This document shows, piece after piece, positions 1,404-49,368 of a stretch of 64,000 bases of DNA; position 1 is the first letter of the stretch; the number at the start of each line of letters is the position of its first letter. The translations under genes and the position numbers were made by a program. The stretch is from Sulfitobacter mediterraneus (GTDB lineage: Bacteria; Pseudomonadota; Alphaproteobacteria; Rhodobacterales; Rhodobacteraceae). The notes below the pieces were generated by a model that saw nothing but the letters and a program-made list of their open reading frames with translations, made no database searches and was not told where the DNA came from. The stretch lies in contig NZ_CP069004.1 in assembly GCF_016801775.1 (NCBI RefSeq), positions 2,294,001 through 2,358,000 of the forward strand. The letters are read 5' to 3'.

Positions 1404-1419
1404 TGCACTATTCCGCACG
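1404..1419. promoter_or_regulatory. Candidate BoxR operator upstream of boxR
   Basis: TGCACTATTCCGCACG agrees at 11 of 16 positions with the motif TGCACTATAATGCGCA found at other promoters of this cluster. It lies about 80 bp before the boxR ATG and overlaps the stop codon of the thioesterase gene. It is the weakest of the six copies. Assignment to BoxR is inferred from location and from the TGCA repeats known for BzdR/BoxR operators in Azoarcus. Confidence 0.4.
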
Positions 1420-1833
1420 CAGACGCGGCTCAATCACCGCCCTGAACTCTGCCGGCGCCGATTGGCTTTTGAACTGATCGGCGATGATAAACACGCAGGT
1501 AAAGCGCCCTTCAAAACACAGCACATCATCTTGCCGCCCCTTCACCGCAAAGGTGATCGACTTGTCGCCCAGCCGTGTCGGATATGTTTCGCACAACAGC
1601 TTATGGCGCGGTGTCACGGGGCTGCGAAAATCCATCGACATGTTGACGAATGGCGTGCCGACATTGCGATCGATCTCCATCTGGAACCAACCGTCGCCAT
1701 CCAGATGGGCCTCCCACCAGGCATTGATCGCATCCAATGCAAAGTAAGGCAGCCGCGCGGTATAGGCGATGCGGGCGGGGTCACAATCGGCCCAGGTCAC
1801 ATTGACCGGATGCACAAAATTCTCTGCGCTCAT
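1408..1833 (-). CDS. Acyl-CoA thioesterase, 4-hydroxybenzoyl-CoA thioesterase family
   Basis: 141 aa hot-dog fold protein. The N-terminal motif ADCDPARIAY (15-24) is the active-site segment of 4-hydroxybenzoyl-CoA thioesterases, with Asp18 of CDP as the expected nucleophile/base. Length is normal for the family. Its ATG directly abuts the TAG stop of boxA (no gap), so it is translated with the box oxygenase genes. In box clusters such thioesterases are thought to hydrolyse benzoyl-CoA or dead-end CoA esters and so release trapped CoA; the exact substrate cannot be read from sequence. Followed by boxR 84 bp downstream. Confidence 0.88.
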   Translation of the reverse strand: MSAENFVHPVNVTWADCDPARIAYTARLPYFALDAINAWWEAHLDGDGWFQMEIDRNVGTPFVNMSMDFRSPVTPRHKLLCETYPTRLGDKSITFAVKGRQDDVLCFEGRFTCVFIIADQFKSQSAPAEFRAVIEPRLRAE

Positions 1834-3012
1834 CTAATAGGTCTCCACGTGATAGCGACCCTCATCGCGCATCACATCACGTAGGGCGGTCCATTGCTGG
1901 CCGATGCTTTCCGCGATGGAGGTCATGGCAAGCTCAACCCCCTCTTCCATCCCCCGCAACCCGCAGATGTAGATATGCGTACGCTCATCACCCAGCATTT
2001 CGGCGACCTCGTCCTGTTCGGCCACGATCCGGTCCTGCACATATTCCTTGTCCGCATCCGGCAGGCGGCTGAACACCAGATGTTGCCGCAGGATCTTTTC
2101 CGGGATCTTCTTGAGCGGTCCGAAATACGGCAGGCTTTCGGGTGTGCGCGCACCAAAGAACATGGTCATGCCGCCCGTGGCACCGCCGCGCTGCCGCTGC
2201 ATGGTGAAGGCCCGCATCGGCGCTGATCCGGTGCCGGTACAGATCAACAACAGGCGCGCATTGGGATCATTCGGCATCAGGAAGGTAGAGCCAAACGGAC
2301 CAGTGACCTCAACCTCTGAACCTTGCTCAAGATCGCACAGGTAGTTGGACGCCAGTCCGCCCTCTTCGCGTTTCACGGTCAGCGAGATATTGTGATAGCC
2401 GGGGCGCTCCCCGTCCCGCGGGCTGGACACGGAATAAAGACGCGGCAGATGCGCCTTGCCTTCCGCATCTTGCCCCGGTGGAATGATGCCGACCGATTGC
2501 CCCTCCAGCACCGGAAAGGGCAATGCGCCGGGGTCCAGAATGATATGGCGCACATCATGGCTTGGATCGTCGGTCAGGCGGTAGTTGCCCTGTACTTTCA
2601 TCTTGGCCGGTTTGCCAAGCGTGTACATATTGACCGCCGGTTTCGCCGCTGTCAGTGGCGCACGCGCCTTGCCGCCCGCGCCCTTGTGCGCCTCGGCCAA
2701 CAGGGCCGCAACCGGATCTGCATCGCCCTCGTCACCGCCCGCTGGCGCCGCCTCGATCTCGGCCTGTTCGGGCAGTTCGTCAAAATCAAACTGTTCTTCA
2801 AGGGTGTAAGGCGTTTCCACCACCCGCCATTCGTCAATGGACCCCGTAGGACAGACCGGGATACAATCCATGCAGAAATTACAGACATCCGCATTCACAA
2901 CGACATTGTTGTCGTCATGTTCGATTGCCCCAATTGGGCAGGTCATCTCACAGGTATAGCAACGGATACAGATCTCGGGATCAATCAGGTGCTGTTTGAC
3001 GGGGGTGGTCAT
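1834..3012 (-). CDS. boxA: Benzoyl-CoA 2,3-epoxidase reductase subunit BoxA
   Basis: 392 aa. Two [4Fe-4S] motifs open the protein: CIRCYTCEMTCP (Cys15, 18, 21, 25) and CNFCMDCIPVCP (Cys44, 47, 50, 54). A linker follows, then a ferredoxin-NADP reductase module with the FAD-binding RLYSVSSPRDG and the NADP-binding LLLICTGTGSAPMRAF. It passes electrons from NADPH to BoxB for dearomatising epoxidation of benzoyl-CoA. ATG at 3012 chosen because GGGAGAG lies 5 bases ahead; an in-frame ATG at 3024 would add four residues. Separated from boxB by 82 bp that hold a strong hairpin. Confidence 0.96.
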   Translation of the reverse strand: MTTPVKQHLIDPEICIRCYTCEMTCPIGAIEHDDNNVVVNADVCNFCMDCIPVCPTGSIDEWRVVETPYTLEEQFDFDELPEQAEIEAAPAGGDEGDADPVAALLAEAHKGAGGKARAPLTAAKPAVNMYTLGKPAKMKVQGNYRLTDDPSHDVRHIILDPGALPFPVLEGQSVGIIPPGQDAEGKAHLPRLYSVSSPRDGERPGYHNISLTVKREEGGLASNYLCDLEQGSEVEVTGPFGSTFLMPNDPNARLLLICTGTGSAPMRAFTMQRQRGGATGGMTMFFGARTPESLPYFGPLKKIPEKILRQHLVFSRLPDADKEYVQDRIVAEQDEVAEMLGDERTHIYICGLRGMEEGVELAMTSIAESIGQQWTALRDVMRDEGRYHVETY

Positions 3013-3070
3013 AGGCTCTCCCATTCATCAAAAGAAGGGCGGAGAGACCCCCACCCTTGATATTCTGCAA

Positions 3071-3088
3071 GGCGGGGTCTACCCCGCC
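3071..3088 (-). other. Intercistronic GC hairpin between boxB and boxA
   Basis: GGCGGGG and CCCCGCC pair perfectly over 7 bp around the 4-base loop TCTA. It lies 6 bp after the boxB stop and 58 bp before the boxA start, and no T tract follows on the coding strand. It is therefore more likely an mRNA-stabilising or processing element than a terminator. Such an element could hold BoxB at higher levels than BoxA. Confidence 0.6.
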
Positions 3089-3094
3089 AAACTG

Positions 3095-4546
3095 TCAGGC
3101 CATGTGCAGCTTAACATACTCATAATCGCCCGGCTTGTTGTCGATCCCAACCTTGGGCGCTGCGATCCAAGAGGCGTATTTGCCAGGCTCAAAACAAGGC
3201 ACCATCAAGGATTGGATGAAATCCCCATCGGCCTTGGTCGGCAACCAGTCACCCTGACGCTTTTGCCACTCTTCCGCCGACAGGATATTGCCGTCCGGAT
3301 CAATCGCAACTGTGCTAAAGACACCGATCTGGCGGTGGAAACCCTCATGCGGCAGCTTCAGTTCAAACTCCACGCCCGACTTGGCAATCAGCTTGTTCCA
3401 ACGGCCCACCCCGCCCGCAGCATCGCGCACGTAATCATCGCGAAGGCGCATGTTGATCGCGGTCAATGCAGGTACATCTTCAGTCAGGATCTTGCCATCC
3501 TTGATCGAGGTGACCGGATAGGTCGCATCATTCAGCTTGTGATCGTCGTCGATCCGCTGCTCCATATAGCGGCCCTTGATGCCGGAGTTGAACGCATTGG
3601 CGGCGTTTGTCGATACCTCCTGACCAAACAGATCCAGTGAAAGAGTATAATGCAGGTTCAGCTTTTTCTGGATCGTCGGCAGGTCAATCACGCCCAGATC
3701 GCGGATCTTGTTGATGTCATAGGGATCGGTGATGCCATTGGCGTTCATCGCCTCAACAGTTGCCTGAATGGTTCGGCCCACGCCGGTCTCGCCGACAAAC
3801 ATATGATGCGCCTCTTCGGTCAGCATGAACCGGCAGGTGCGCGACAGCGGGTCAAACCCCGATTGCGCAAGGCTTTCCAATTGCATCTTGCCATCACGGT
3901 CGGTGAAATAGGTGAACATGAAGAACGACAACCAATCGGGCGTTTCCTCGTTGAACGCGCCCAGCATACGCGGCGCGTCTTCGGACCCGGAGGAGCGCAC
4001 CAACAGGTCGTTCGCCTCTTCGCGGCCATCGCGGCCAAAATATTTCTGCAGCAGATACACCATCGCCCAAAGGTGACGGCCTTCTTCGACGTTCACCTGA
4101 AAAAGGTTGCGCATGTCATAAAGGGATGGCGCCGTCAGACCAAGGAAACGCTGCTGTTCTACCGATCCCGGCTCAGTGTCGCCCTGAATGACGATCAGGC
4201 GCTTGAGCATATTGCGATACTCACCCGGCACCTCTTGCCATGCCGGCTCACCATAATGCTCGCCCATCGGGATCTTGCGATCTTCAACCGCTGGTGCCAG
4301 CAGAACACCCCAGCGATATTCTGGCATCTTCACATAGTCGAACTTCGCCCAGCCCTTGGGATCAACGCTCACCGCGGTGCGCAGGTAGACCATGCTTTCC
4401 TGAAAGTTCTGCGGGATCAGATCATTCCACCAGTTGATATAACCGGGGTGCCATTTCTCCAGCGCTTTGAGCACCTTCTTGTCCTCGGACAGCCCGACAT
4501 TGTTCGGGATTTGCGTGTCATAACTTACGTTGATCAGATCGAGCAT
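3095..4546 (-). CDS. boxB: Benzoyl-CoA 2,3-epoxidase oxygenase subunit BoxB
   Basis: 483 aa, the usual size for BoxB. It is the class I diiron oxygenase that adds one oxygen atom to benzoyl-CoA, giving 2,3-epoxybenzoyl-CoA. Diiron ligand motifs are visible: VNVEEGRHLW (E155, H158) and LTEEAHHMF (E245, H248), the paired ExxH helices of the ferritin-like core. The start has a good ribosome binding site, AAGGAAC, 7 bases before the ATG. It follows boxC by 84 bp and precedes its reductase boxA on the same transcript. Confidence 0.97.
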   Translation of the reverse strand: MLDLINVSYDTQIPNNVGLSEDKKVLKALEKWHPGYINWWNDLIPQNFQESMVYLRTAVSVDPKGWAKFDYVKMPEYRWGVLLAPAVEDRKIPMGEHYGEPAWQEVPGEYRNMLKRLIVIQGDTEPGSVEQQRFLGLTAPSLYDMRNLFQVNVEEGRHLWAMVYLLQKYFGRDGREEANDLLVRSSGSEDAPRMLGAFNEETPDWLSFFMFTYFTDRDGKMQLESLAQSGFDPLSRTCRFMLTEEAHHMFVGETGVGRTIQATVEAMNANGITDPYDINKIRDLGVIDLPTIQKKLNLHYTLSLDLFGQEVSTNAANAFNSGIKGRYMEQRIDDDHKLNDATYPVTSIKDGKILTEDVPALTAINMRLRDDYVRDAAGGVGRWNKLIAKSGVEFELKLPHEGFHRQIGVFSTVAIDPDGNILSAEEWQKRQGDWLPTKADGDFIQSLMVPCFEPGKYASWIAAPKVGIDNKPGDYEYVKLHMA

Positions 4547-4630
4547 TGTCGAAGTTCCTTTTCAGTCTGGGCATCGGAAACCTGAGGCGTTCCCGACCGG
4601 CTTCTTTCGAGGACGCCGTTCCATTGATGA

Positions 4631-6289
4631 TTACACACGTTCCATATTGTATTTGCCGCGCACCCCGGTGCCGTAGCGTTGCAAGGCGCCCTCTTCACCA
4701 ACTGCGTTGGGGCGCTGGAAAATCCAGTTCTGCCATGCAGTCAGGCGGCCAAAAATCCGGGTTTCCATGGTTTCCGGCCCGGCAAAGCGCAGATTGGCTT
4801 CCATCCCCGTCATCGCATCGGGGCTAAAGCTGGCACGTTCTTCCATGAACAGGCGCACCTCATCCTCCCAATCGATGTCATCGTAGGCATAGGTGATCAG
4901 GCCCAGTTTCTCTGCGTCATCCGCATCCAGTGCCTCCCCTATGGAGGATTTCAGCTTTTCCACCTGCTCCGGAGTGCCAAGGAAACGGGTCTGCAAACGG
5001 GTCAGGTCATTGCCCATCGGATAGGTGCCAAAGTTGCCCTCTGACATCGCAACGGTTGCCAGCGCCCGGTTGTCGCCGTCAAACTCCTCCAGCATCATAT
5101 AGCTGCGGTCCACCGCCCAGAGCAGTTCGGCCAGCACCCCGGCAAAGCATGATCCATGCTCCACGATCGCCACCAAGGACCGCGAGGTCATGTCGATGCG
5201 TTTCAGCACCCGTTTCCAATATTGCAGCACTTCGTTGGCCAGCCAATGATCAGGGTTGCCCAGCAACAGCGCTTCATGCGCCAGTACGGTTTCAGGATCG
5301 CCCTGGGTCTGGAATTCAATCAGCCCCAGTTCCTTTTCGTTGTTGCGCAAATGCAAAATTGCGTCGTCCAGTTCCCGCGCACAGCGCAGCATCCAATTCT
5401 CCGCCCCCTTGGCGGTGAAGGCATCCATATCCGCTGGCGCATCTGCCTCCGGACCTTTGATCGTGATTGTGGCACGGCTTTCATCCCGCACAAGCGCCAC
5501 CTCAACCGTGGTATAGCTCACACCATCCTCGGCAAAACTGCGGGACAGCGGAGTAAGTTCGATCCCCTCCGCCACATCAGGTTTGGCCGATTCTGCGGCC
5601 AGCGTGGCCGCCCGCTCCGCGACCTTTTCATCAAAGCTGGAGTTCGGGAACACTTCGTCCACCAGCCGCCATTGCACCGCGCGTTTGCCTTTCACGCCCT
5701 CTTCGATAGAACAGAACACATCTGCCAGATCACGGCGCACCTTGCGTTTGTCGGTCACTCGGGTCAGCCCACCTGTGCCCGGCAGAACCGCCAGCAACGG
5801 CACCTCAGGCAAGGCCACAGAGGACGTGCTGTCATCGGTCAGCATGATGTGATTGCACGCCAACGCCAGCTCATAACCCCCGCCCGCACAGGCCCCTTTG
5901 ACCGCGCAGATATAGTTCTGCCCGCTGTCGGCCAAAGCGGCCTCAAACGTGTTGCGGGTCTCGTTGGTGAATTTGCAGAAATTGACCTTATGGGCATGCG
6001 CCGCGCCGCCCAGCATGCGGATGTTGGCCCCTGCACAGAACACCTTGTCCTTGGCCGAACGCATGACCACCACTTTGACTTCGGGGTGTTCAAACCGCAT
6101 CCGTTGCACAACGTCAGCCAGCTCGATGTCGACACCCAGATCATAGCTGTTCAGCTTGAGCTCATAGCCGTCGAACAACCCGCCCTTTTCGTCCACATCC
6201 ATCGAAAGCCATGCAATCGGACCATCATATTCAATCTTCCAGTGCCGGTACTTGGACGGATCGGTCTGAAAGTCGATCACTTTGGTCAT
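4631..6289 (-). CDS. boxC: 2,3-epoxybenzoyl-CoA dihydrolase BoxC (benzoyl-CoA-dihydrodiol lyase)
   Basis: 552 aa, made of two crotonase-fold halves. The first carries FCAGANIRMLGG and a GACAGGGYELALACN oxyanion segment; the second resembles it more weakly (SCFAGVLAELLWAVDRSYM). The enzyme hydrolyses the epoxide and cleaves the ring, giving 3,4-dehydroadipyl-CoA semialdehyde and formate. The next enzyme, BoxD aldehyde dehydrogenase, is not in this window. ATG at 6289 chosen because GAGGGG is 8-9 bases upstream; the ATG at 6304 lies on top of that site. boxC probably opens a boxCBA-thioesterase-boxR transcript controlled from 6290-6399. Confidence 0.96.
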   Translation of the reverse strand: MTKVIDFQTDPSKYRHWKIEYDGPIAWLSMDVDEKGGLFDGYELKLNSYDLGVDIELADVVQRMRFEHPEVKVVVMRSAKDKVFCAGANIRMLGGAAHAHKVNFCKFTNETRNTFEAALADSGQNYICAVKGACAGGGYELALACNHIMLTDDSTSSVALPEVPLLAVLPGTGGLTRVTDKRKVRRDLADVFCSIEEGVKGKRAVQWRLVDEVFPNSSFDEKVAERAATLAAESAKPDVAEGIELTPLSRSFAEDGVSYTTVEVALVRDESRATITIKGPEADAPADMDAFTAKGAENWMLRCARELDDAILHLRNNEKELGLIEFQTQGDPETVLAHEALLLGNPDHWLANEVLQYWKRVLKRIDMTSRSLVAIVEHGSCFAGVLAELLWAVDRSYMMLEEFDGDNRALATVAMSEGNFGTYPMGNDLTRLQTRFLGTPEQVEKLKSSIGEALDADDAEKLGLITYAYDDIDWEDEVRLFMEERASFSPDAMTGMEANLRFAGPETMETRIFGRLTAWQNWIFQRPNAVGEEGALQRYGTGVRGKYNMERV

Positions 6290-6380
6290 CGGTGGTCCCC
6301 TCATGAATAAGTCGCATTGATGCGATATAGTTCAGAATACTTAGCGGAAACGGCAGGTAGTTACATTATTTTCCGGATAA

Positions 6381-6396
6381 CGTGAATTATAGTGCA
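6381..6396. promoter_or_regulatory. Candidate BoxR operator upstream of boxC
   Basis: On the minus strand this reads TGCACTATAATTCACG, 13 of 16 matches to TGCACTATAATGCGCA. It lies in the 110 bp gap between the DUF309 gene and boxC, 92 bp before the boxC ATG. A second 14-bp palindrome, TCGCATTGATGCGA, lies at 6312-6325 between this site and the gene and may be part of the promoter. Confidence 0.55.
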
Positions 6397-6399
6397 TCT

Positions 6400-6858
6400 T
6401 CATTGATCGATCAGGATCAAAGTTTCCTGCACCAGCCGTTCCATCTTGGGCCGTTCCAACCCCAAAACCGGCAGTCCCATCGGGCAACGCGCAAGATGTG
6501 CCAGCACCATATCACACAGCCGCCTCGCCGCATTTAGGCGCTGCATCCGGATCTTGATCCGTGCATTGGCCAGCTGGATCATCGCCTGCGCCATGTCCCG
6601 CTCTGCCGACCATTCCGGCGTTTGCAACCAAACAGCCTCAAGCACCTCGTGGCATTCCCAGTAATAGCCGGCCTCGAAATATTCCAATCCCGCCTGCCAG
6701 GCGAGCGTCAGATGCAGCGCATCCAGCGGTGTCTGCGGGCCCACACTGATTTTGATATCATCGAACCAATCTTCGGGATGACGTGCATTCACCCCCGGCA
6801 AATAGGCATGGGACGGCCGCGGAATATGGTCGGGCTGATCAGCCAATCCTGACCTCAT
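6400..6858 (-). CDS. DUF309 domain-containing protein in the box cluster
   Basis: 152 aa. The centre carries the DUF309 signature, a helical segment with AGLEYFEAGYYWECHEVLEA (about residues 58-77), including the conserved HEVLE. Function is unknown. The ATG at 6858 overlaps the end of the alpha/beta hydrolase gene by 20 bp, with GAAGAGG directly before it, so the two are co-translated. A longer reading frame upstream would be arginine-rich antisense-like sequence inside the hydrolase and is rejected. Its place between benzoate-CoA ligase/hydrolase and boxC implies a role linked to aromatic degradation, but nothing in the sequence says which. Confidence 0.82.
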   Translation of the reverse strand: MRSGLADQPDHIPRPSHAYLPGVNARHPEDWFDDIKISVGPQTPLDALHLTLAWQAGLEYFEAGYYWECHEVLEAVWLQTPEWSAERDMAQAMIQLANARIKIRMQRLNAARRLCDMVLAHLARCPMGLPVLGLERPKMERLVQETLILIDQ

Positions 6859-7663
6859 CCTCTTCGAGCCGCCGCAGCCGGGCGCAGAACTCCGTGATCT
6901 CCGCCAGGGTTTCCTTCGGTTTCTCCAGGTGCGGCGCATGCCCGCAATCGTCAAGGATCAGCGTATCCAGCGGTGAATAGATCCGGTCTTCTATCTCTTG
7001 GATTTGCGCCAGGGTGCCATAGGCATCATCGCGCCCCTGAATGGCCAGAACCGGAATGCGCCAGTGGTCAATTGCATCAGCCACGTTCCACTTGGCAAAG
7101 GCAGGATCAGTCCAGACATCATGCCAGCCCTTGAACGCCACTTCGACATTGGCGTGATATTTCTCAAGGCGCTGTTTCAGATCCCCGTCTTCAAACGCCT
7201 CGCCTGCCGCGCGGATCGCCGCCAGCCCGGAAGGTTCGGTAAAGAAATGCGGCGCGATCAGGACAAGCCCGCGCACCCGCATATCAGACACTGAACCGGC
7301 ATAAATCGCGGCAATGGTCGCACCGTCCGAATGCCCCATCAAAATGCAATGCTCGATTCCGGCCGCATCCAACACGGCACCCAGAACATCCTCAGCCTCA
7401 CGCGTCTGAAAATCAAGCGGTCGGGGCAGCGTCACGGGATCAGATCCGCCATATCCAGCACGGCTGTAGGCAAAGACACCAAAGCCCGTGCGTGCGGCCA
7501 ATTGCGCAGGCACGTCTTTCCACTGCGCGACAGAACCAAGCCCCTCATGCAGCAGCACCAGCGTAGGCGCCTTGTGCGGCGCGGGGCCCCAGCAGGCATA
7601 CTCAAGCGATTGGCCGTTGACCGCAATCCGCGCCCCATCGGCATTCGTCCAATTGATCGCCAT
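6839..7663 (-). CDS. Alpha/beta hydrolase of the benzoate cluster
   Basis: 274 aa. Classical hydrolase layout: oxyanion strand LVLLHEGLGS (about 36-45), nucleophile elbow GHSDG with Ser112, and a late catalytic His in DDCGHAPHLEKP. It begins with ATG in a TGATG overlap with benzoate-CoA ligase, so translation is coupled. Alpha/beta hydrolases are common accessory members of box clusters; likely substrates would be an ester, lactone or CoA thioester of the pathway, but this is inference. No signal peptide, so cytoplasmic. An upstream in-frame extension lies wholly inside the ligase gene and was discarded. Confidence 0.88.
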   Translation of the reverse strand: MAINWTNADGARIAVNGQSLEYACWGPAPHKAPTLVLLHEGLGSVAQWKDVPAQLAARTGFGVFAYSRAGYGGSDPVTLPRPLDFQTREAEDVLGAVLDAAGIEHCILMGHSDGATIAAIYAGSVSDMRVRGLVLIAPHFFTEPSGLAAIRAAGEAFEDGDLKQRLEKYHANVEVAFKGWHDVWTDPAFAKWNVADAIDHWRIPVLAIQGRDDAYGTLAQIQEIEDRIYSPLDTLILDDCGHAPHLEKPKETLAEITEFCARLRRLEEDEVRIG

Positions 7664-9201
7664 CACGCGCCCTCTCTGAGTTTGAACCGCTGGATCTTTC
7701 CGGTTGCGGTTTTTGGCAAGTCTTCCACCACTTCGATCCAGCGGGGATATTTCCATTTGCCGATTTTCTCTTTCACAAAGTCTTTCAGCTCGGCTTCAAG
7801 GGTGTCTGATCCCTCACCTGATTGCAGCACGATAAAGGCCTTGGGCTTTTCCAGCCCATCGGAATCCCGCATGGCCACGACCGCCGCCTCCAGCACCTGC
7901 GGATGGCTGACCAATGCGCCTTCAACCTCAAAGGGGGACAGCCAGATACCCGAGACCTTGAACATGTCGTCCGTGCGCCCGCAATAGACCAGCCGCCCAT
8001 CCTCGCGGCGCTCGTATTTGTCGCCCGTGCGGGTCCAGACCCCTTCGAAGGTCTCACGCGATTTGTCGCGCTGGTTCCAGTAACAATGTGCGGCGGACGC
8101 CCCGTTGACCAAGAGTTCCCCCACTTCTCCAACGCCCACCTCTGCGCCGCTTTCGTCGACCAGACGCAATTCGTATCCCGGCACCGCAACCCCCGAAGTG
8201 CCATAGACGATATCGCCCGGCCCGTTGCTCAGGAAAATGTGCAGCATCTCGGTTGATCCGACACCATCCAGAATGCCCACTCCCGTATGCGCCTCCCACC
8301 GTTTGCCCACATCTTCGGGCAATGCCTCACCTGCCGAGATGCAGGTGCGCAATGGCGCATCGGGCGCACCAGTTTGATCCATCTGTGCGACCATCGCCGC
8401 ATACAGTGTCGGCACCCCGCAGAAGATCGTCGGCCGATGCGCGGCAATTGTTTCGATCATGTCCGGCGGCGTGGGCCGACCGGTGAACAGCACCGTGCTG
8501 GCCCCGACAGACAGCGGAAAGGTCATCGCATTGCCCAGCCCATAGGCGAAAAAGAATTTGGCGGCTGACAGCACCACGTCATCCTCGGCAATACGCAGCA
8601 CCTTGGCACCGTAGGTGTCTGCCGTGGCCTTCAGGGCGGAATGCACATGCGCAACGCCCTTTGGCTGCCCGGTAGAGCCCGACGAATATAGCCAGAATGC
8701 CACCTCGTCGGCACTGACGGCCATGGTGTCTTGGGCGGGGGCATCGCGCATGAAGTCATCGAAACCCTGCGTGTCCTCCGGCGCATCGCCAATCATAACC
8801 ACCTGCCGCAGATAGGGATTGCCTGCGACCGCAGGGGCAACCACGGGCCAAAGCGCCTCTGACACGAACAGGACCGCCGCGCGGCTGTCGCGCAGGATCG
8901 CGTCATAAACCGGCGTGGCCAACAGCGTGTTGAGCGGGACCGGCACCACGCCGGCCTTGATCGCGCCCCAGAAGATCTGTGGAAATTCGATCTGGTCCAG
9001 CACCAGCATCGCCGCGCGTTCCTCGGGCCGGATACCAGCGCGGGTCAACGCCCCCGCCACCTGCGCGGCACCTGCGGCCATGTCGCTGTAGCTCAGGCTG
9101 CGTCCGCTTTGTGCTTCCAAGAAGGCACGCTTGTCGCCGCGTCCTTCGTCCAGATGTCGATCCACAAAATAGGTGACAGCGTTGTTGTCGGTAGAAACCA
9201 T
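7663..9201 (-). CDS. bclA: Benzoate-CoA ligase
   Basis: 512 aa adenylate-forming enzyme that converts benzoate, ATP and CoA to benzoyl-CoA, the entry step of the box pathway. The ATP loop SSGSTGQPKG is near residue 168, the adenylation motif GVGSTEMLHIF in the middle, and the catalytic lysine motif KTATGKIQRF near the C-terminus. Overall it resembles the BadA/BclA group rather than acetyl-CoA synthetases. Start ATG at 9201 is fixed by GGGGGG 4 bases upstream; an in-frame ATG at 9234 has no such site. Two TGCA-type motifs occupy its 75 bp upstream gap, suggesting BoxR control. Confidence 0.93.
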   Translation of the reverse strand: MVSTDNNAVTYFVDRHLDEGRGDKRAFLEAQSGRSLSYSDMAAGAAQVAGALTRAGIRPEERAAMLVLDQIEFPQIFWGAIKAGVVPVPLNTLLATPVYDAILRDSRAAVLFVSEALWPVVAPAVAGNPYLRQVVMIGDAPEDTQGFDDFMRDAPAQDTMAVSADEVAFWLYSSGSTGQPKGVAHVHSALKATADTYGAKVLRIAEDDVVLSAAKFFFAYGLGNAMTFPLSVGASTVLFTGRPTPPDMIETIAAHRPTIFCGVPTLYAAMVAQMDQTGAPDAPLRTCISAGEALPEDVGKRWEAHTGVGILDGVGSTEMLHIFLSNGPGDIVYGTSGVAVPGYELRLVDESGAEVGVGEVGELLVNGASAAHCYWNQRDKSRETFEGVWTRTGDKYERREDGRLVYCGRTDDMFKVSGIWLSPFEVEGALVSHPQVLEAAVVAMRDSDGLEKPKAFIVLQSGEGSDTLEAELKDFVKEKIGKWKYPRWIEVVEDLPKTATGKIQRFKLREGA

Positions 9202-9217
9202 GTAACCCCCCAGTATT

Positions 9218-9233
9218 TGCGCAACATTGTGCA
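9218..9233. promoter_or_regulatory. Candidate BoxR operator upstream of bclA (proximal)
   Basis: Minus strand TGCACAATGTTGCGCA, 13 of 16 matches to the cluster motif. It ends 16 bp before the bclA ATG, just ahead of the ribosome binding site, a position where a bound repressor would block transcription. Its centre is 53 bp, about five helical turns, from the next copy at 9271. Confidence 0.55.
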
Positions 9234-9270
9234 TCCCGCCCGCATATGCGCAACCGGCAGCACAAAAGGT

Positions 9271-9286
9271 TGCACTTTAATGCGCA
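9271..9286. promoter_or_regulatory. Candidate BoxR operator upstream of bclA (distal)
   Basis: TGCACTTTAATGCGCA on the plus strand, 15 of 16 matches to the motif. It straddles the stop codon of the feruloyl-CoA-synthetase-like gene. With the copy at 9218-9233 it frames the bclA promoter region. Confidence 0.6.
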
Positions 9287-11091
9287 GTGGTGATCCGGCT
9301 TTCGGTTTGCGGATCATAAAGCTGATCCACCAGATCGGCGCGGCGGCGCAGGAACTTGGGAAAGTTGATATTTCCCTTCGCGGTCGCCTCTCCCTCGGCC
9401 ATGGAGGCCGGTTCAGACAAGACCAAGGCGCAGCTGACATGCGTGGATTGATCTGACTGCCCGGCCAACGCCGACAGACGCCGGCCCAGTTCTTCTTGCA
9501 ACGGGGCGCAGGTGATTACGCCATCCGCCTCTGTCATAGTCCAGCCTTGCGCGGCAATCGCGGCGCGGTTGGGCAGGATCATCACCCCCACCTCGGACCG
9601 GTCCTCACCTGTTATCACCACGTCCTGCGCCAGGGGGGCCAGTGCCGCCAACACATCAAGGCGCAATTGCGAGGCCCGCACCCAAGTGCCGGTCATCAGT
9701 TTGAAGTTTTCGGAGATCCGCCCGTCAAACATCAGCCCGCGATCGGCATCTGCGGGGGCCACCAACTGCATAGCGTCGCCGGTGATGAAATAGCCCTCGC
9801 CGTCGAACGCCTCCTGCGTTTTTTCAGGGTTGTTCAGATATCCGGGCGTGACGTTGTCGCCTTTGACCCGCACATCAAAGCGGCCATCCCCGTCCGGCAC
9901 CAGCTTGACCGTGCACCCCGGCATCGGCACGCCAACAAGCCCTGCCCCCTTGGCCGGCTCGTGGCTGATCATCACCCCCGGTGCGGTTTCGGTCAGCCCC
10001 CAAGAGGTGGTGATCAGGGGCAATTGCCCGCAAGTGTCCAACGCCAGTTGTTCCAAAGCCATCCAGATGTCCTGCGGCAGGGACGCGCCTGCGTAAAAGA
10101 TCATATCGAGATCGGCAAAATAGGTCTCGCGCAACGCCTTATCCGCCTTTAGCGCCGTGACCAACTGGGCAAAACCAACAGGTACGTTAAAGCTTATGGT
10201 GGCCGAGATTTCGGCAAGGTTCTGGCGGGTCCGGTCAAACAGCCCCGGCGCAGGTTTGCCATCGTCCAGATGCATGCTACCGCCATTGGCCAGCACCAGA
10301 TTGAAATTATACGAGCCGCCAAAGGTGTGATTCCACGGCAACCAATCGACCAACCGGGGCGGACGTTTGGCGAGGAACGGCAGGCAGGCCGCGACCTGTG
10401 CCTGATTGGTGGTCATCATTCGCTGCGTGGTCAGCACCCCTTTGGGATCGGAAGTGGAGCCGGAGGTGAGCAGGATCTTGGCCAACGTCTCGGGCGTCAC
10501 CGCATCTGCCGCCGTCTGCACATCGCCGGTGCCGGGGCGCATCAGATCGGCCAGATCCGTCGCACCACTGCCCCCCGGCATCGACGATAGTTTTTCAACG
10601 CCCGCAAATATCTCCAGATCCAGCGCGGCTCCATATTGGGACGCATCCGATGCATAGACCAAACCGGGGCGCACCATGTCTGCGGCATGGATCAACCGCC
10701 CATGCGCGGCGGGGATCAGGGCGTATTGTTCGGCAACAGGCACCACTGGAATACCGACATATTGCGCCGCAAGGCTGAGCAAGGCGTGGTCAATGCTGTT
10801 GCCGGAGATGATCAAAACAGGCCGGTCCGGGCCTAGATCGCGGTTCAACAGGTGCCCCGCTATCGTCCGGACCATATCCCGCGCCGCGCCGTAGGTGACC
10901 TTGCGCCAGCCTGTCCCGGACCGTTCGGCCAGAAACAGGGCGTCGGGCGTTGCATCCGCCCATTGATCCAGCCAATCCCCTGTGCACCGCGCCACCGGCC
11001 CATGGGTATATCCGGACTGCAAGACAATTGCCCCATTCGCGCGATCCTCGCGCAGAACCTGATGTGGTTTCAGCCCCAAATGTGCCGTCAT
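9277..11091 (-). CDS. Feruloyl-CoA-synthetase-like acyl-CoA ligase
   Basis: 604 aa adenylate-forming enzyme. It has the ATP loop LLTSGSTSDPKGV (near residue 200) and, shortly after, DWLPWNHTFGG followed by LDDGKPAPGLFDRT, a combination typical of feruloyl-CoA synthetases, which activate hydroxycinnamates. The C-terminal lysine segment reads GEATAKGNINFPKFL, also typical of that group. Start ATG at 11091 follows AGGGAGG by 7 bases; an upstream extension to 11238 overlaps dctM and looks non-coding. In a benzoate cluster it may admit cinnamate-type or other substituted aromatic acids, matching the adjacent TRAP importer. A palindrome CCTGCAAAATTGCAGG lies 17 bp upstream (11108-11123). Confidence 0.85.
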   Translation of the reverse strand: MTAHLGLKPHQVLREDRANGAIVLQSGYTHGPVARCTGDWLDQWADATPDALFLAERSGTGWRKVTYGAARDMVRTIAGHLLNRDLGPDRPVLIISGNSIDHALLSLAAQYVGIPVVPVAEQYALIPAAHGRLIHAADMVRPGLVYASDASQYGAALDLEIFAGVEKLSSMPGGSGATDLADLMRPGTGDVQTAADAVTPETLAKILLTSGSTSDPKGVLTTQRMMTTNQAQVAACLPFLAKRPPRLVDWLPWNHTFGGSYNFNLVLANGGSMHLDDGKPAPGLFDRTRQNLAEISATISFNVPVGFAQLVTALKADKALRETYFADLDMIFYAGASLPQDIWMALEQLALDTCGQLPLITTSWGLTETAPGVMISHEPAKGAGLVGVPMPGCTVKLVPDGDGRFDVRVKGDNVTPGYLNNPEKTQEAFDGEGYFITGDAMQLVAPADADRGLMFDGRISENFKLMTGTWVRASQLRLDVLAALAPLAQDVVITGEDRSEVGVMILPNRAAIAAQGWTMTEADGVITCAPLQEELGRRLSALAGQSDQSTHVSCALVLSEPASMAEGEATAKGNINFPKFLRRRADLVDQLYDPQTESRITTAH

Positions 11092-11161
11092 TGCAAACCT
11101 CCCTAAGCCTGCAAAATTGCAGGGCGGTTGATCCAGCGGCAGCTTTCCCGATGGCGGCCCG

Positions 11162-12481
11162 TCAGCCGGGCAGCAGGAACAATGTAATCGCGGGGAAAGC
11201 CACCAGAATGATAACGCGCAGGATGTCGGAGCCGACAAAATACATCACTGATTTGTAGGTCTCGGTCATCGGGGTCTCGCGGTCCATCGAGTTGATGATA
11301 AACAGGTTCATCCCCACCGGCGGCGTGATCAAACCAACCTCGACCACGATCAGCACCAGAATGCCGAACCAGATCGCCAGATGTTCCGGGCTCATCCCAA
11401 AATCCATCGCCGAAATCACCGGGAAAAAGATCGGCACGGTCAGCAGGATCATCGACAGGCTGTCCATCAGACAACCAAAGACCAGATAGAAGGCCAAGAT
11501 TACGCAAAGCACCAACAGCGGGCTGAAGCCCTGTGTCACGACCCAATCGGCCATGAACTGCGGCACGCCCGACAGGGCAAGGAAGCCGTTGTAAAACGCC
11601 GCGCCCAGCACGATGAAAAAGATCATCGCCGTGGTCCGCGCTGTACCCAAAAGGCTGTCACCCAGCACTTTCCAGTTCAAACTGCCGGACACCAGCGCCA
11701 CCAGCCCCGTGCCCATCGCACCAATGGCGGAGCCTTCGGTGGGTGTAAACCAGCCCAGATAGATGCCGCCAACCACCACGAGGAAGATCACCAGAACCGG
11801 CCATGTGTCGGCCAGGGCGCGAAACCTCTCGGCCATGGGGACCGCAGGACGGGTGCCTGCCGCATCCGGGTGCAGACGCACATAGATGGAAATGGTCAGA
11901 ATATACCCCAGCGCCGCCAGAATGCCCGGTATGAACGCTGCGAGGAACAGCTTGGCGATATTTTGTTCGGTCAGGATGGCGTAGATCACCAAGATCACAG
12001 AGGGCGGGATCAGAATGCCCAGCGTGCCGCCAGCGGCCAGCGTCGCGGTGGAGAAACCACCCGAATAGCCATAGCGTTTCAACTCCGGCAGGGCGACCTT
12101 GGACATGGTCGCAGCCGTGGCCAGCGACGATCCGCAAATCGCACCAAACCCGGCGCAGGCACCGACAGCCGCCATGGCAACGCCGCCGCGGCGGTGACCA
12201 AGAAAGCTTTCTGCTGCTTTGAAAAGGGCCTGACTCATCCCGGACAGGGTCGCAAATTGCCCCATCAGCAAGAACATCGGAATGATGGTCAGCGAATAGC
12301 TGGAAAAGGTGGTGTAGGTCTCAGATTTCAGCTTGGCCAACAGCGGGGTCGGATTGCCGCCCATCGCCATATACCAGCCGCCAAATCCACACAGCAGCAT
12401 AGCCAGACCAATCGGCGCGCGCAGAAACACCATGATCATCAGGATGGGAAAGGACCAAAAGCCCAATTCGAGGTTGGTCAT
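11162..12481 (-). CDS. dctM: TRAP transporter large permease (DctM)
   Basis: 439 aa polytopic inner-membrane protein with about twelve hydrophobic segments and family motifs such as GFGAICGSSLATAATM and LLTVPIFFPV. It is the ion-coupled channel subunit of a tripartite ATP-independent periplasmic transporter. Start at 12481 is preferred; an ATG at 12496 would overlap dctQ by 14 bp. Gene order dctP-dctQ-dctM plus position at the head of the aromatic cluster suggests uptake of benzoate or a related aromatic acid; the substrate is inferred from context only. Confidence 0.92.
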   Translation of the reverse strand: MTNLELGFWSFPILMIMVFLRAPIGLAMLLCGFGGWYMAMGGNPTPLLAKLKSETYTTFSSYSLTIIPMFLLMGQFATLSGMSQALFKAAESFLGHRRGGVAMAAVGACAGFGAICGSSLATAATMSKVALPELKRYGYSGGFSTATLAAGGTLGILIPPSVILVIYAILTEQNIAKLFLAAFIPGILAALGYILTISIYVRLHPDAAGTRPAVPMAERFRALADTWPVLVIFLVVVGGIYLGWFTPTEGSAIGAMGTGLVALVSGSLNWKVLGDSLLGTARTTAMIFFIVLGAAFYNGFLALSGVPQFMADWVVTQGFSPLLVLCVILAFYLVFGCLMDSLSMILLTVPIFFPVISAMDFGMSPEHLAIWFGILVLIVVEVGLITPPVGMNLFIINSMDRETPMTETYKSVMYFVGSDILRVIILVAFPAITLFLLPG

Positions 12482-12482
12482 T

Positions 12483-13064
12483 TCAATGTTCCCCATGCTC
12501 GGACGGCAGAATGCTGTGGTTCTGCACAGCCTCCAAAAGGCGCATCACCGCGCAATAGGCCGCAACAATGCAGGTCACGACGCCTGCAGCAAAGCTGGCC
12601 GCATAGGCCCACCAAACCGGAAACTGCAGGAACAACGTTGTCTCGCCATTGCCCATGTAGCGCTGCATCCCCTCGTACAGCCGCCAGATGATCAGCGCCA
12701 GCACGAGCGCCAGAACAATCTCCCAAAAGGCGGCAATCCAACGGTTCGCCCGGACCGGAAGAGCGGCGGTAAATACATCCACTGTCGCATGAGCGCCATA
12801 AAGCTGGCACAGCGGCAGGAAAGAAAAAATCGCAAAGGCGACGCCGGCCTCAAGCAGCTCGTAGCTGCCATTGATCTCACCAATGCCGAGATCAAGCAGG
12901 GCTTGGGAGAAGCCGGTCATCTTTTGCTGAAAGAAGTCATTGTGCAGCAGCTTGTTCACGGAGCGCCCAATGATCGACAGTGACGTTAGAACGATCAACA
13001 CGATCAGCACAAACCCACCAGCCAAAGCGGTGAGGCGTGCAAGGGACTGGATCAGCCGGTGCAT
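12483..13064 (-). CDS. dctQ: TRAP transporter small permease (DctQ)
   Basis: 193 aa with four predicted membrane helices: residues about 13-30, a middle pair, and one near 135-165. This is the normal DctQ topology. It pairs with DctM in the membrane and docks the solute-binding protein. The stop is only 1 bp from the dctM ATG, so the two are co-translated. It is separated from dctP by a strong hairpin with a T tract, which probably lowers its expression relative to the binding protein. Confidence 0.9.
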   Translation of the reverse strand: MHRLIQSLARLTALAGGFVLIVLIVLTSLSIIGRSVNKLLHNDFFQQKMTGFSQALLDLGIGEINGSYELLEAGVAFAIFSFLPLCQLYGAHATVDVFTAALPVRANRWIAAFWEIVLALVLALIIWRLYEGMQRYMGNGETTLFLQFPVWWAYAASFAAGVVTCIVAAYCAVMRLLEAVQNHSILPSEHGEH

Positions 13065-13083
13065 TGCTATTCTCTCAGTTCAG

Positions 13084-13120
13084 TAAAAAAGATCTGCGGC
13101 AGCAGGACTGCCGCAGATCT
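13084..13120 (-). terminator. Intra-operon hairpin/attenuator between dctP and dctQ
   Basis: Perfect 13 bp stem AGATCTGCGGCAG / CTGCCGCAGATCT (13090-13102 with 13108-13120) around a 5-base loop. On the coding (minus) strand it is followed at once by TTTTTT. Placed 17 bp after the dctP stop, it fits a partial terminator that gives excess binding protein over permease, a common design in binding-protein transporter operons. Confidence 0.85.
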
Positions 13121-13137
13121 GTATTCATGCAAGGCGA

Positions 13138-14172
13138 TTACTTATCGTAAGCGTCCATCAGCATTCTTGCTTCGTCGATCAGAGCCTGACCGTCGATGCC
13201 TTTAGACTTCATGTCTGCGATCCATTCGTCATAGATCGGCTGCGCCACATCGCGCCACGCCTGAACATCATCACCCGAAACTGTCACGATGGTGTTGCCA
13301 CGATCCACGGCGGCCTGACGTGAAGGACCATCGGCATCGGACTGCGTGCCACCTGCAAAGATGGAGAATTCCAGACCGGAGTTGTCGTCGATCACCTTTT
13401 GCAGATCCGCTGGCAGACCCTCGTAGCGGTCCTTGTTCATCGCCAGAACGAAGGTCAGAACATAAAGGGCATTGCCTTCAAATTCGGTGTGGTAATCCAC
13501 CAGCTCTGGCACTTTCAACGCGCCGGTCACTTCCCAAGGAATGGTTGTGCCGTCGATCACACCTTTGGACAGGCCTTCTGGCACGGCCGGAACCGGCATG
13601 CCCACGGGTGTGGAGCCCATTTTTTCCAGCAGCGAGTTCACAAGACGCGAACCACCGCGGATTTTCAGGCCTTCCATATCGGCAGGCGTGCGGACTTCCT
13701 TGTTGACGTGGATCATGCCGGGGCCGTGAACCCATGTGCCCAGAATATGCACATCTTTGAATTCACCGTCTTTCATGTGCTTTTCAAACATCTGCCAATA
13801 GGCCGAAGAGGCCGCGCGGGCGTTTGTCATCATGAACGGCAGTTCGAACACCTCAGTGCTGGGATAGCGGCCCGGCGTATAGCCAACCACGGTCCAGACG
13901 ATGTCGGCCACGCCGTCGATCGCCTGGTCCATCAGTTCTGGTGGTTTGCCGCCCAGCTGCATGGAAGGATAGCGCTCAACCTTGATACGGCCGCCGCTGT
14001 CTTTTTCAACGTTGTCCGCCCAGACATCCAGCACCAGCTTGGGCACATTGGCCTGCGGTGGCAGGAATTGGTGCATGCGCAGCGTCACCTCCTGCGCCAT
14101 TGCGGTTGTCGCCATCAAGGTTGCAGCAACAGCTGCCCCCGCCATACCCATCAGGGTTCTGCGAAAAATCAT
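13138..14172 (-). CDS. dctP: TRAP transporter substrate-binding protein (DctP)
   Basis: 344 aa periplasmic binding protein. An N-terminal signal peptide (MIFRRTLMGMAGAAVAATL..., cleavage expected after TAMAQ, about residue 27) precedes the DctP fold. The LKIRGGSRL segment carries the arginine that usually contacts a carboxylate in TRAP binding proteins. AAGGGAGA lies 7 bases before the ATG. It heads the aromatic cluster and is preceded by two copies of the TGCA-type motif, so it is probably induced together with the catabolic genes. Likely ligand: benzoate or another aromatic acid (inference). Confidence 0.92.
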   Translation of the reverse strand: MIFRRTLMGMAGAAVAATLMATTAMAQEVTLRMHQFLPPQANVPKLVLDVWADNVEKDSGGRIKVERYPSMQLGGKPPELMDQAIDGVADIVWTVVGYTPGRYPSTEVFELPFMMTNARAASSAYWQMFEKHMKDGEFKDVHILGTWVHGPGMIHVNKEVRTPADMEGLKIRGGSRLVNSLLEKMGSTPVGMPVPAVPEGLSKGVIDGTTIPWEVTGALKVPELVDYHTEFEGNALYVLTFVLAMNKDRYEGLPADLQKVIDDNSGLEFSIFAGGTQSDADGPSRQAAVDRGNTIVTVSGDDVQAWRDVAQPIYDEWIADMKSKGIDGQALIDEARMLMDAYDK

Positions 14173-14372
14173 AGTGGTCTCCCTTTGTTATCCATCTGGC
14201 CCCGGTTGTACCGCGGTCCTGATTTTGCCGAAGTGCTGCTTGCACCCCCGGTTGTGCCTATAATCAATACCCGCTGGCCGCGATGACGCAAGCCAAGACA
14301 GGCAAAAACGCAATTTGTCACAGGTTTACCGGCCAAAACCGGCCCTTCCGACAGGACAAGTCGCGCACAGAC

Positions 14373-14388
14373 AAAGCATTTTAGTGCA
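14373..14388. promoter_or_regulatory. Candidate BoxR operator upstream of dctP (proximal)
   Basis: Minus strand TGCACTAAAATGCTTT, 12 of 16 matches to the cluster motif. It lies 200 bp before the dctP ATG and 64 bp, about six helical turns, from the stronger copy at 14437. Confidence 0.45.
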
Positions 14389-14436
14389 GATCATCCCAAG
14401 CCAGCGCCGCGCCGCAGTCAACGGCAAAGATAAATC

Positions 14437-14452
14437 TGCGCATTATAGTGCT
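14437..14452. promoter_or_regulatory. Candidate BoxR operator upstream of dctP (distal)
   Basis: Minus strand AGCACTATAATGCGCA, 15 of 16 matches; it differs from the bclA copy at 9271 in only two positions. An extra TGCA follows at 14457-14460. Confidence 0.6.
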
Positions 14453-20466: not shown

Positions 20467-21348
20467 TCAGGCAGTCTCACGCGCCTCACGGCGTATCCAT
20501 GTCACAAATGATTTCAGAACGGGCCGCATCACGCCGGGCCGTTTGACAAGGTGATAGCCTGCATCATCGTCCGGTTCGATGTGCAACTCACGCAATCGCC
20601 CCGCCGCGATATCCCGCGCAACAAATTCACGCACGGTTACAATCACCCCCTGCCCGTCCCGCGCCCCGTCAAGCAAGAGATTGCCGGGCACCTGCACCAT
20701 CCCGTGTTTGCGTGCGCCGGACATCCCGTGACGGTCCAGCCATCTGGTGCTTTCAGATGTGCCAAACTCTTCGAGCCACGGCAGATCGGCCAAGGCATTG
20801 ATGTCCGGGCCCGGACCATCGCCAACCAAACAGGGCGCAGCCACCACGACCATAGGCGAGCGGAGCAGCATTTCCGCATCCAGCCCCGGCCACGGCCCAA
20901 CCCCATAACGCAGCGCCACATCAATTCCGTCTGAGGACAGCGTGACAATCTCTGGTGTTGGATCAATCATCAGATCCACCTCGGGATGCCGCGCCCGAAA
21001 CTTTGGCATGCGCGGCATCAACCATGAGGCGGCAAAGGTGGGCGTGACAGAAATATGCAGCGGCTTGTCGTCCAACGCGCCGGTGATCTCTTGCGTCGCT
21101 TCGATCATCGCGGCAAATCCCGCCTGCAGGGCTTTGGCCAATGTCTCGCCCGCGTCCGTCAGCTGCAGACCCCGCCCGGACCGATCAAGCAATGCCACGT
21201 CCAGATGTGCCTCAAGCGCACGCAACTGTTGGCTGATCGCGGCGTGGCTGACGCCAAGCGCCTCACCTGCCGCCACCAAGTTACGGGTCTGGGCAAAGGC
21301 CGAAAACGCCCTGAGCGCCGACAATGGCGGTAGGTGACGCCAATCCAT
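20467..21348 (-). CDS. LysR family transcriptional regulator (GcvA-like)
   Basis: 293 aa. N-terminal winged helix-turn-helix (LPPLSALRAFSAFAQTRNLV, then ALGVSHAAISQQLRALEAHL), then a periplasmic-binding-protein-like effector domain. The opening W-R-H-L-P-P-L-S resembles the GcvA/AmpR branch. ATG at 21348 has GGGG 7 bases ahead; an earlier start would add a cysteine-rich stretch unlike the family. It is divergent from the 48-aa ORF and the isochorismatase-like gene and probably controls them through the 99 bp between. Confidence 0.9.
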   Translation of the reverse strand: MDWRHLPPLSALRAFSAFAQTRNLVAAGEALGVSHAAISQQLRALEAHLDVALLDRSGRGLQLTDAGETLAKALQAGFAAMIEATQEITGALDDKPLHISVTPTFAASWLMPRMPKFRARHPEVDLMIDPTPEIVTLSSDGIDVALRYGVGPWPGLDAEMLLRSPMVVVAAPCLVGDGPGPDINALADLPWLEEFGTSESTRWLDRHGMSGARKHGMVQVPGNLLLDGARDGQGVIVTVREFVARDIAAGRLRELHIEPDDDAGYHLVKRPGVMRPVLKSFVTWIRREARETA

Positions 21349-21447
21349 ATTAAACCCCAGCTTACACAATGCGAACATCCGTGACTCGCAGTATGTCACC
21401 GTTTCAAACATATTCAACAGCAGATGCATGCAAGGAAAGGAACCGAC

Positions 21448-21601: not shown

Positions 21602-22129
21602 ATGAGCAATTCAATGGCCTTGGTTCTCGTGGACATTCAGAACGATTATTTCACCGGAGGGCTGTGGCCCGTGGAAGACATGGAACGCGTCGCGTCACAT
21701 GCTGCCGAAGTGCTGCAGGACGCTCGGACCGCTGGTGAGATGGTCGTGCATGTCTATCACGAGGCCGCCAGCGACAGCGCACCATTCTTTCGTCCCGGCA
21801 CCCAGGGGGCGCAAATCCACGCCTCCGTCGCACCGCAGGAAGGTGAGGCGATGATCCTCAAACACCGCCCCAACAGCTTTCATGGAACAGATCTGCACGC
21901 ACATCTTCAGGCGGCGGGGATCACCCAAGTGACGATCATCGGCGCTATGACGCAAATGTGCATTGATGCGACCGCGCGTGCGGCACGGGATCTGGGTTAT
22001 GACGTGACGCTGATTGCCGATGCCTGCGGGGCCAAGGCGCTGTCATTCAATGGCGTGCACCTCAGCGCTGCCGAAGTGCAGGCGGCCTTTCTCGCCCCGC
22101 TTGCCATGTCTTATGCAAAGGTGATCTGA
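21602..22129 (+). CDS. Cysteine hydrolase, isochorismatase family
   Basis: 175 aa. The catalytic triad of the isochorismatase-like hydrolases is in place: Asp11 (LVDIQNDYF), Lys87 (LKHRPNSF) and Cys120 (GAMTQMCIDATARAA), with a cis-peptide region before the cysteine. The family includes nicotinamidases, ureidoacrylate and isochorismate hydrolases; lack of the nicotinamidase metal motif makes a general amide hydrolase more likely. It forms an operon with the small basic ORF before it and the membrane protein after it, opposite a LysR gene. Confidence 0.88.
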   Translation: MSNSMALVLVDIQNDYFTGGLWPVEDMERVASHAAEVLQDARTAGEMVVHVYHEAASDSAPFFRPGTQGAQIHASVAPQEGEAMILKHRPNSFHGTDLHAHLQAAGITQVTIIGAMTQMCIDATARAARDLGYDVTLIADACGAKALSFNGVHLSAAEVQAAFLAPLAMSYAKVI

Positions 22130-49288: not shown

Positions 49289-49368
49289 ATCAATCCTGTC
49301 ATTTGCGTTTTGGTGCATGTTGGGCGCAGCGGTAGGGTGCAGGCCTAGTAAGGTCAACCGCTATTGCA

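Follow-up and report, generated by a model that had tools for sequence, protein, structure and literature searches.

Paired predicted BoxR operators at four promoters of a box gene cluster in Sulfitobacter mediterraneus

The BoxR/BzdR palindrome of Betaproteobacteria is ATGCACTATAGTGCAT, with the core TGCA-N6-TGCA, and in a comparison of 32 species the sites were almost always multiple and mainly 3–5 helical turns apart (Suvorova and Gelfand 2019, PMC6449761). In Azoarcus, BzdR protects TGCA(N6)TGCA operators and forms a loop-like complex with the promoter, and benzoyl-CoA is the inducer; at the PN promoter of Azoarcus sp. CIB, one operator region overlaps the promoter and binding is cooperative (PMC6678401). 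A 64,000-nucleotide stretch of the Sulfitobacter mediterraneus genome (contig NZ_CP069004.1; called the window) contains a box gene cluster with eight copies of a similar repeat, two before each of boxR, boxC, bclA and dctP. As judged from the sequence, we hold with good confidence that these repeats are the operators of a BoxR regulon with four promoters. The motif, the regulator and the pathway are already known, and the repeat is the published BoxR/BzdR palindrome. What appears to be new, and is well supported by the sequence comparisons, is the presence of such a predicted regulon in the genus, the arrangement of the sites in pairs at each of the four promoters, the tripartite ATP-independent periplasmic (TRAP) transporter as a target, and operators whose presence is linked to boxR. 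None of these four was found in the open-access literature searched, and no earlier description of BoxR sites in Alphaproteobacteria was found in the open literature, including the main text of PMC5343134; most subscription papers lie outside this scope.

The locus resembles the betaproteobacterial BoxR/BzdR regulon (PMC6449761) in the regulator family, the palindrome, the sites spaced by several turns, the box, bclA and hydrolase targets and the transporter genes. It differs from that regulon in its Rhodobacterales host, its TRAP dctPQM transporter, its one-strand rather than divergent cluster, and its spacings of 5–6 rather than mainly 3–5 turns; "TRAP", "tripartite" and "dctP" do not occur in the main text of PMC6449761. 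The BzdR-controlled PN promoter shares the TGCA(N6)TGCA motif and the several operators per promoter, but it has three operator regions at one anaerobic promoter, whereas the sequence alone gives two sites at each of four promoters here, for the epoxide (box) pathway (PMC6678401). The TRAP system for aromatic acid uptake in roseobacters is likewise encoded by an operon near aromatic catabolic genes. In contrast to the present locus, it is tied to 4-hydroxybenzoate and the pca cluster, and the main text describing it has no word starting with "box" or "regulator" (PMC12442348). A Sulfitobacter strain takes up algal benzoate and grows on it via catechol, another route (PMC9873259), which makes the control of benzoate use in the genus ecologically interesting. 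With the predicted regulon, a type of repressor control that has an experimental basis in Betaproteobacteria would reach a marine genus of the Rhodobacterales; a near full-length boxC match was found in 31 of its 62 genomes examined, and the TRAP operon is predicted to be a regulated uptake route.

The initial annotation had described six copies of a 16-bp near-palindrome at these promoters. All six were found in place, and their match counts (15, 12, 15, 13, 13 and 11 of 16) were reproduced. The count was incomplete, however, because the sites at 1343–1356 (boxR) and 6321–6334 (boxC) had been overlooked. The corrected total is eight, two per promoter. The 16-mer is also off register as a motif unit; the 14-mer TGCA-N6-TGCA, as seen in relatives and in the published motif, is the better one. 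The sites were scored with a symmetric matrix, seeded with the published consensus and built from 64 boxC and bclA sites (the best per region) of loci L051–L085. Our own and the nearest genomes were left out of the training, and the window, the boxR sites and the dctP sites are independent of it. The eight predicted operators are as follows.

1343–1356, GGAATAATACTGCA on the plus strand: boxR-proximal, 10.8 bits, window rank 8, newly added
1404–1417, TGCACTATTCCGCA on the plus strand: boxR-distal, 12.3 bits, window rank 6
6321–6334, TGCGATATAGTTCA on the plus strand: boxC-proximal, 11.9 bits, window rank 7, newly added
6383–6396, TGCACTATAATTCA on the minus strand: boxC-distal, 18.3 bits, window rank 1, one mismatch to the degenerate core
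9220–9233, TGCACAATGTTGCG on the minus strand: bclA-proximal, 10.0 bits, window rank 9
9271–9284, TGCACTTTAATGCG on the plus strand: bclA-distal, 16.4 bits, window rank 3, overlapping the end of the upstream ligase-like gene
14375–14388, TGCACTAAAATGCT on the minus strand: dctP-proximal, 17.1 bits, window rank 2
14439–14452, AGCACTATAATGCG on the minus strand: dctP-distal, 15.8 bits, window rank 4, between the tRNA-Met gene and dctP

When the matrix was run over the whole window, ranks 1–4 and 6–9 (eight of the top nine matches) were the two sites at each of the four promoters, and rank 5 was a 12.6-bit match at 49303, before bioY. The four upstream zones of about 317 bp each make up 2% of the window, which gives a binomial P of 2e-13 for zones that were chosen after the matches were known. 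Outside the promoter zones of the box loci, only 4 matches of at least 12 bits were found in 436,094 bp. The earlier 16-mer, with up to three mismatches, also gave more matches in the window than expected (4, whereas 100 shuffles averaged 0.47 and never exceeded 2). Single weak copies such as the one before bioY could suggest that the repeats arose by chance, but eight of the top nine matches stand at four promoters, and permuted palindromes hit a mean of 0.13–0.33 loci (largest 4) where 8–24 were observed per promoter. Chance is very unlikely for the whole set, and we give it a negligible probability.

The own genome (4.21 Mb) was scanned with the degenerate 14-mer pattern TGCAYTWWARTGCA, and the matrix was run on the window. 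This pattern was composed after the sites of the own genome and its relatives were known, and the published core served for the independent count given below. The own sites are imperfect, and even the best differ from the degenerate core at one position. The 14-mer is not frequent elsewhere in the genome: with up to one mismatch it has 3 matches, all in the cluster (before boxC, bclA and dctP). With two mismatches there were 52 matches versus 38 for the reversed pattern, and 4 of them lie in the cluster. Among the 50 of these 52 that were listed, 45 are outside the window, and 7 of the 45 lie outside open reading frames (ORFs) of at least 100 aa; additional BoxR targets may be among them. Across 62 genus genomes, 12 of the 15 exact matches are in box clusters, and the reversed pattern has 6 matches. 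With one mismatch, 118 matches versus 87 reversed were counted in the 31 boxC genomes, 47 versus 52 in the 26 genomes without BoxR, and 17 in the 5 genomes whose only BoxR is a divergent one; boxC genomes show a modest excess over the rest, which is only mildly informative. The bioY site (49304–49317) is exact in G035, the nearest relative, whose BoxR is 97% identical to that of the window. In the own genome it differs from the pattern at two positions and lacks an aromatic context, and it was treated as a chance match.

The 16-mer form TGCRC-N6-GYGCA might instead be an altered, wider operator particular to the own genome, as both bclA sites can be read as fair 16-bp palindromes of this form. 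However, most relatives have a near-plain TGCA-N6-TGCA at the orthologous positions where the own genome has TGCACTTTAATGCG and similar sequences, and the trailing CA behind the 16-mer is not generally conserved among them. The degenerate 14-mer is matched with at most one mismatch by three of the own sites, whereas the 16-mer with up to three mismatches has 51 matches in the whole genome versus 21 for the reversed pattern, and is a poor detector. A wider operator is quite improbable.

Among the 62 genus genomes (own included), a near full-length boxC match was found in 31, and BoxR at E 1e-40 or better in 36, including all of these 31. The conservation counts omit the own and nearest genomes, and also L108 (G094); L064 is without a dctP and L084 without a boxC upstream region. 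When the published core was searched with up to three mismatches, the motif proved conserved before the orthologous boxC and bclA genes (24 of 29 genus relatives each), as the initial annotation required, but only in part before boxR (8 of 27) and dctP (8 of 28, within 320 bp). Dinucleotide shuffles gave 0.3–1.4%, and the permuted palindromes mentioned above (30 of them, 27–29 loci per promoter) were the second control. The "family" group of this count mixes same-family and same-class genomes (L080–L089). With the matrix, 15 of 27 genus relatives had a boxR-proximal site of at least 8 bits that lies 20–39 bp upstream of the start, and it reaches 13–16 bits in several. Farther away, in a betaproteobacterial box cluster (Mycetohabitans, L152), the matrix gave 18.8 bits for a site that lies some 90 bp upstream of the boxR-like gene. 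The helix-turn-helix stretches of the two regulators are alike (SGVSPRYLAQLE in the window, TGLSERHLANLE in Mycetohabitans). The BoxR scan of named genomes gave 6 loci, 4 of them close.

The dctP sites provide a comparison between genomes with and without boxR. Homologues of dctP exist in 54 of the 62 genus genomes: all 31 that have boxC, the 5 in which a divergent BoxR is the only one, and 18 that lack BoxR. The 1.5 kb upstream of dctP was scored with the matrix, whose training included no dctP sites, in 28 box-cluster genomes (the own, the nearest and one with dctP outside the stretch being omitted) and in 17 of the 18 boxR-less genomes (G011, with the gene at a contig edge, being omitted). 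The boxR-less set includes G004, which is 64% complete, and two genomes with more divergent TRAP genes that may be paralogues (L173 and L174, from G034 and G006). A site of at least 12 bits was found in 17 of 28 genomes with boxR versus 1 of 17 without (Fisher P 0.0004, rank test P 0.002). The sole boxR-less exception, G059, is 66% complete and has a bclA with its own sites, so boxR is probably just absent from its assembly. In G052 (L158), which is 99% complete, dctPQM, bclA and the DUF309-like gene are kept and boxR is absent; its best score was 8.2 bits in the 1.5 kb before dctP and below 0 in the 300 bp before bclA. The fact that dctP sites are all but missing from relatives without boxR strengthens the inference that BoxR binds the predicted operators.

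These data bear on whether a regulator other than BoxR binds the sites. Other regulators, BenR/XylS and CopG, also use sites that contain TGCA (PMC6678401), which would allow such a reading. Against it, the motif is the published BoxR/BzdR palindrome, within the genus dctP sites of at least 12 bits go together with the presence of boxR, and G052 scores low without boxR. Among the ORFs typed, which are part of the total, the regulator genes found were boxR and one of the LysR type, some 6 kb away from the dctP sites. Another regulator is given a slim chance. The suggestion of the initial annotation that BoxR binds the sites agrees with the identity of the palindrome and with the position of boxR within the cluster. 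Its proposal of one regulator over import, activation and ring cleavage is supported by the operator match, by boxR in the cluster, by the rarity of the motif elsewhere and by the boxR-linked dctP sites. From these sequence comparisons, BoxR very probably controls import, activation and ring cleavage here, and perhaps also its own gene.

The centre distances of the paired sites in the own genome are 61 bp at boxR, 62 bp at boxC, 51 bp at bclA and 64 bp at dctP. The distance of 64 bp reported earlier for dctP was right, but that of 53 bp for bclA became 51 bp in the correct register. Spacings were then collected from the two best sites (at least 8 bits) per promoter in the own genome and relatives, for loci to L085; for boxC and bclA the matrix was applied to the same loci on which it was trained. 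At bclA the spacing was 51 bp in 16 of 27 cases and 41 bp in 5. At boxR it was 50–51 bp in 12 of 16 and 61 bp in 2, and at boxC it was 61–63 bp in 15 of 30, the remainder being mostly 20, 31–32 or 50–54 bp. For a period of 10.5 bp, all 76 spacings together gave an R of 0.81, and they fall short of whole turns by about 1 bp. When one value was kept per promoter and spacing class (19 values), which removes relatedness only roughly, R was 0.68 at 10.5 bp, and random sets were as high with a frequency of 0.0001. The earlier statement that the paired copies lie near whole helical turns holds, and the spacings of relatives cluster there too. The dctP pairs that reach more than 320 bp upstream with at least one member stand outside these statistics; their spacing is 61 bp in L070, L072, L075, L076 and L159, and 64 bp in L067.

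The weaker sites allow a more restricted reading, in which the strong sites are operators and some of the weak ones are something else: the boxC-proximal site would be mainly a −10 element (TATAAT-like), the boxR-distal site partly thioesterase coding sequence, and the pairing would be overstated. In aligned upstream regions of many relatives, the boxC-proximal position resembles TGAATTATAATAC, which is a good −10 hexamer with degraded TGCA halves, and this position may also serve as the −10 element. The boxR-distal site runs into the last codons and stop of the thioesterase-like gene (Ala-Glu-stop), and coding constraint may account for the conservation of part of it. On the other side, the pair spacings at boxC, boxR and bclA are near whole turns and differ by about one turn between genomes (41/51 and 51/61 bp). 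The thioesterase codons are kept in L056 but the second half-site is missing, and the boxR-proximal scores of 13–16 bits in several relatives count against a non-operator role. We consider this restricted reading rather unlikely.

Under the preferred reading, in which all eight repeats are operators, the two operators of each promoter would be separated by about 5 or 6 helical turns. The centre of the proximal site is 25–26 bp from the start codon at boxR and bclA, and at boxC the distance is 23 bp if the gene starts at 6304 and 38 bp if it starts, as is likelier, at 6289. Proximal operators at about 25–38 bp upstream of the likely starts would lie where RNA polymerase could bind, which would suit repression at these three genes. 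At dctP both sites are more than 200 bp upstream of the gene. Pairs on the same face of the helix would suit cooperative binding, and BoxR dimers on paired operators would probably touch, bending or looping the DNA. BoxR would thereby keep the TRAP uptake operon, bclA, boxCBA and boxR low. When benzoate enters, BclA would make benzoyl-CoA, which would bind BoxR and release the repression. By analogy, BoxR is most likely a repressor released by benzoyl-CoA, as benzoyl-CoA is the inducer for BzdR in Azoarcus (PMC6678401). BoxR binding, repression, looping, the benzoyl-CoA signal and the transport of benzoate by the TRAP system are what we infer here, benzoate being only the presumed TRAP substrate.

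Strong dctP operators were found only where boxR or other box-cluster genes occur, and operator pairs shift their spacing by about whole turns. We lean towards a history in which BoxR took over a separately conserved aromatic-acid TRAP operon and selection acts on a looped complex of two dimers as a unit. Genomes with and without boxR offer a natural test of operator function and of spacing evolution.

Several observations weigh against the regulon as proposed. Four of the eight sites are weak (10–12.3 bits), and the 12.6 bits before bioY show that scores like theirs arise elsewhere. With the matrix, 12 of 27 genus relatives had no boxR site of at least 8 bits. In 11 of the 28 box-cluster genomes (one with only 313 bp of sequence) no dctP site of at least 12 bits was found, so control of the TRAP operon looks common but not universal. 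This operon is also present in boxR-less genomes and therefore need not be specific for benzoate. In L154 (G058, 7868–11781) and L157 (G001, 7968–11929), which lack boxC, dctPQM adjoins a divergent boxR (53% and 45% identical to that of the window), and no matrix site of at least 10 bits was found in either locus. The BoxR-like locus of Methylobacterium bullatum, where box genes are not established, had no site of at least 13 bits. The relatives are also non-independent samples.

The cluster is encoded on the minus strand in the order dctPQM, acyl-CoA synthetase-like gene, bclA, alpha/beta hydrolase gene, DUF309 gene, boxC, boxB, boxA, thioesterase-like gene and boxR, with a tRNA-Met gene immediately upstream of dctP. 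Its genes, all on the minus strand, are the following.

436–1323, minus: boxR, helix-turn-helix and shikimate-kinase-like regulator (NF006015, 351 bits, cut-off 204; HTH_3 and SKI domains)
1408–1833, minus: acyl-CoA thioesterase-like gene (weak match only, TIGR02799, 22 bits, far under the cut-off)
1834–3024, minus: boxA, benzoyl-CoA 2,3-epoxidase subunit (TIGR03224, 511 bits)
3095–4546, minus: boxB, benzoyl-CoA 2,3-epoxidase subunit (TIGR03225, 902 bits)
4631–6304, minus: boxC, 2,3-epoxybenzoyl-CoA dihydrolase (TIGR03222, 954 bits)
6400–6834, minus: DUF309 gene, start provisional (PF03745 on the ORF 6400–6954)
6839–7756, minus: alpha/beta hydrolase gene (PF00561)
7663–9201, minus: bclA, benzoate-CoA ligase (TIGR02262, 736 bits, on the ORF 7663–9234)
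9277–11238, minus: acyl-CoA synthetase-like gene (NF009232, 618 bits, under the cut-off of 777)
11162–12496, minus: dctM, TRAP large permease (PF06808)
12483–13064, minus: dctQ, TRAP small permease (PF04290)
13138–14172, minus: dctP, TRAP solute-binding protein (PF03480)

The assignment of boxR agrees with its XRE-type helix-turn-helix and shikimate-kinase-like domains and with its clustering with boxA, boxB, boxC and bclA. For boxC, the start at 6289 appears likelier than 6304, as the ribosome-site-like GAGGGGAC was seen by eye immediately ahead of it. The bclA start at 9201 was preferred over 9234 because relatives align from 9201. No boxD was found among the cluster ORFs typed. The best BoxD match of the genome (C1:2640019–2641566, L147) lies far from the cluster, in a 677-aa frame, and is an aldehyde dehydrogenase. 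The acyl-CoA synthetase-like gene, which fills the interval between dctM and bclA, is variable among relatives; in some members of the genus, none was found within the cluster stretch. The LysR-type regulator gene at 20467–21429 of the window neighbours an isochorismatase-family gene at 21602–22129.

Some further arrangements were noted in genomes without boxC. The dctM of L154 is split into two frames. In L153, L155 and L156, the BoxR-like gene adjoins a tRNA-Met-like sequence (recognized by eye), on whose far side L155 has a hemF-type gene, and the half-operator-like ATATAGTGCA stands directly before the BoxR-like gene in L153 and L156. In L160 (G045) and L162 (G050), dctPQM adjoins only a thioesterase-like gene, and neither box genes nor boxR were found in the 12-kb stretch; it looks as though these genomes had lost the central part of the cluster.

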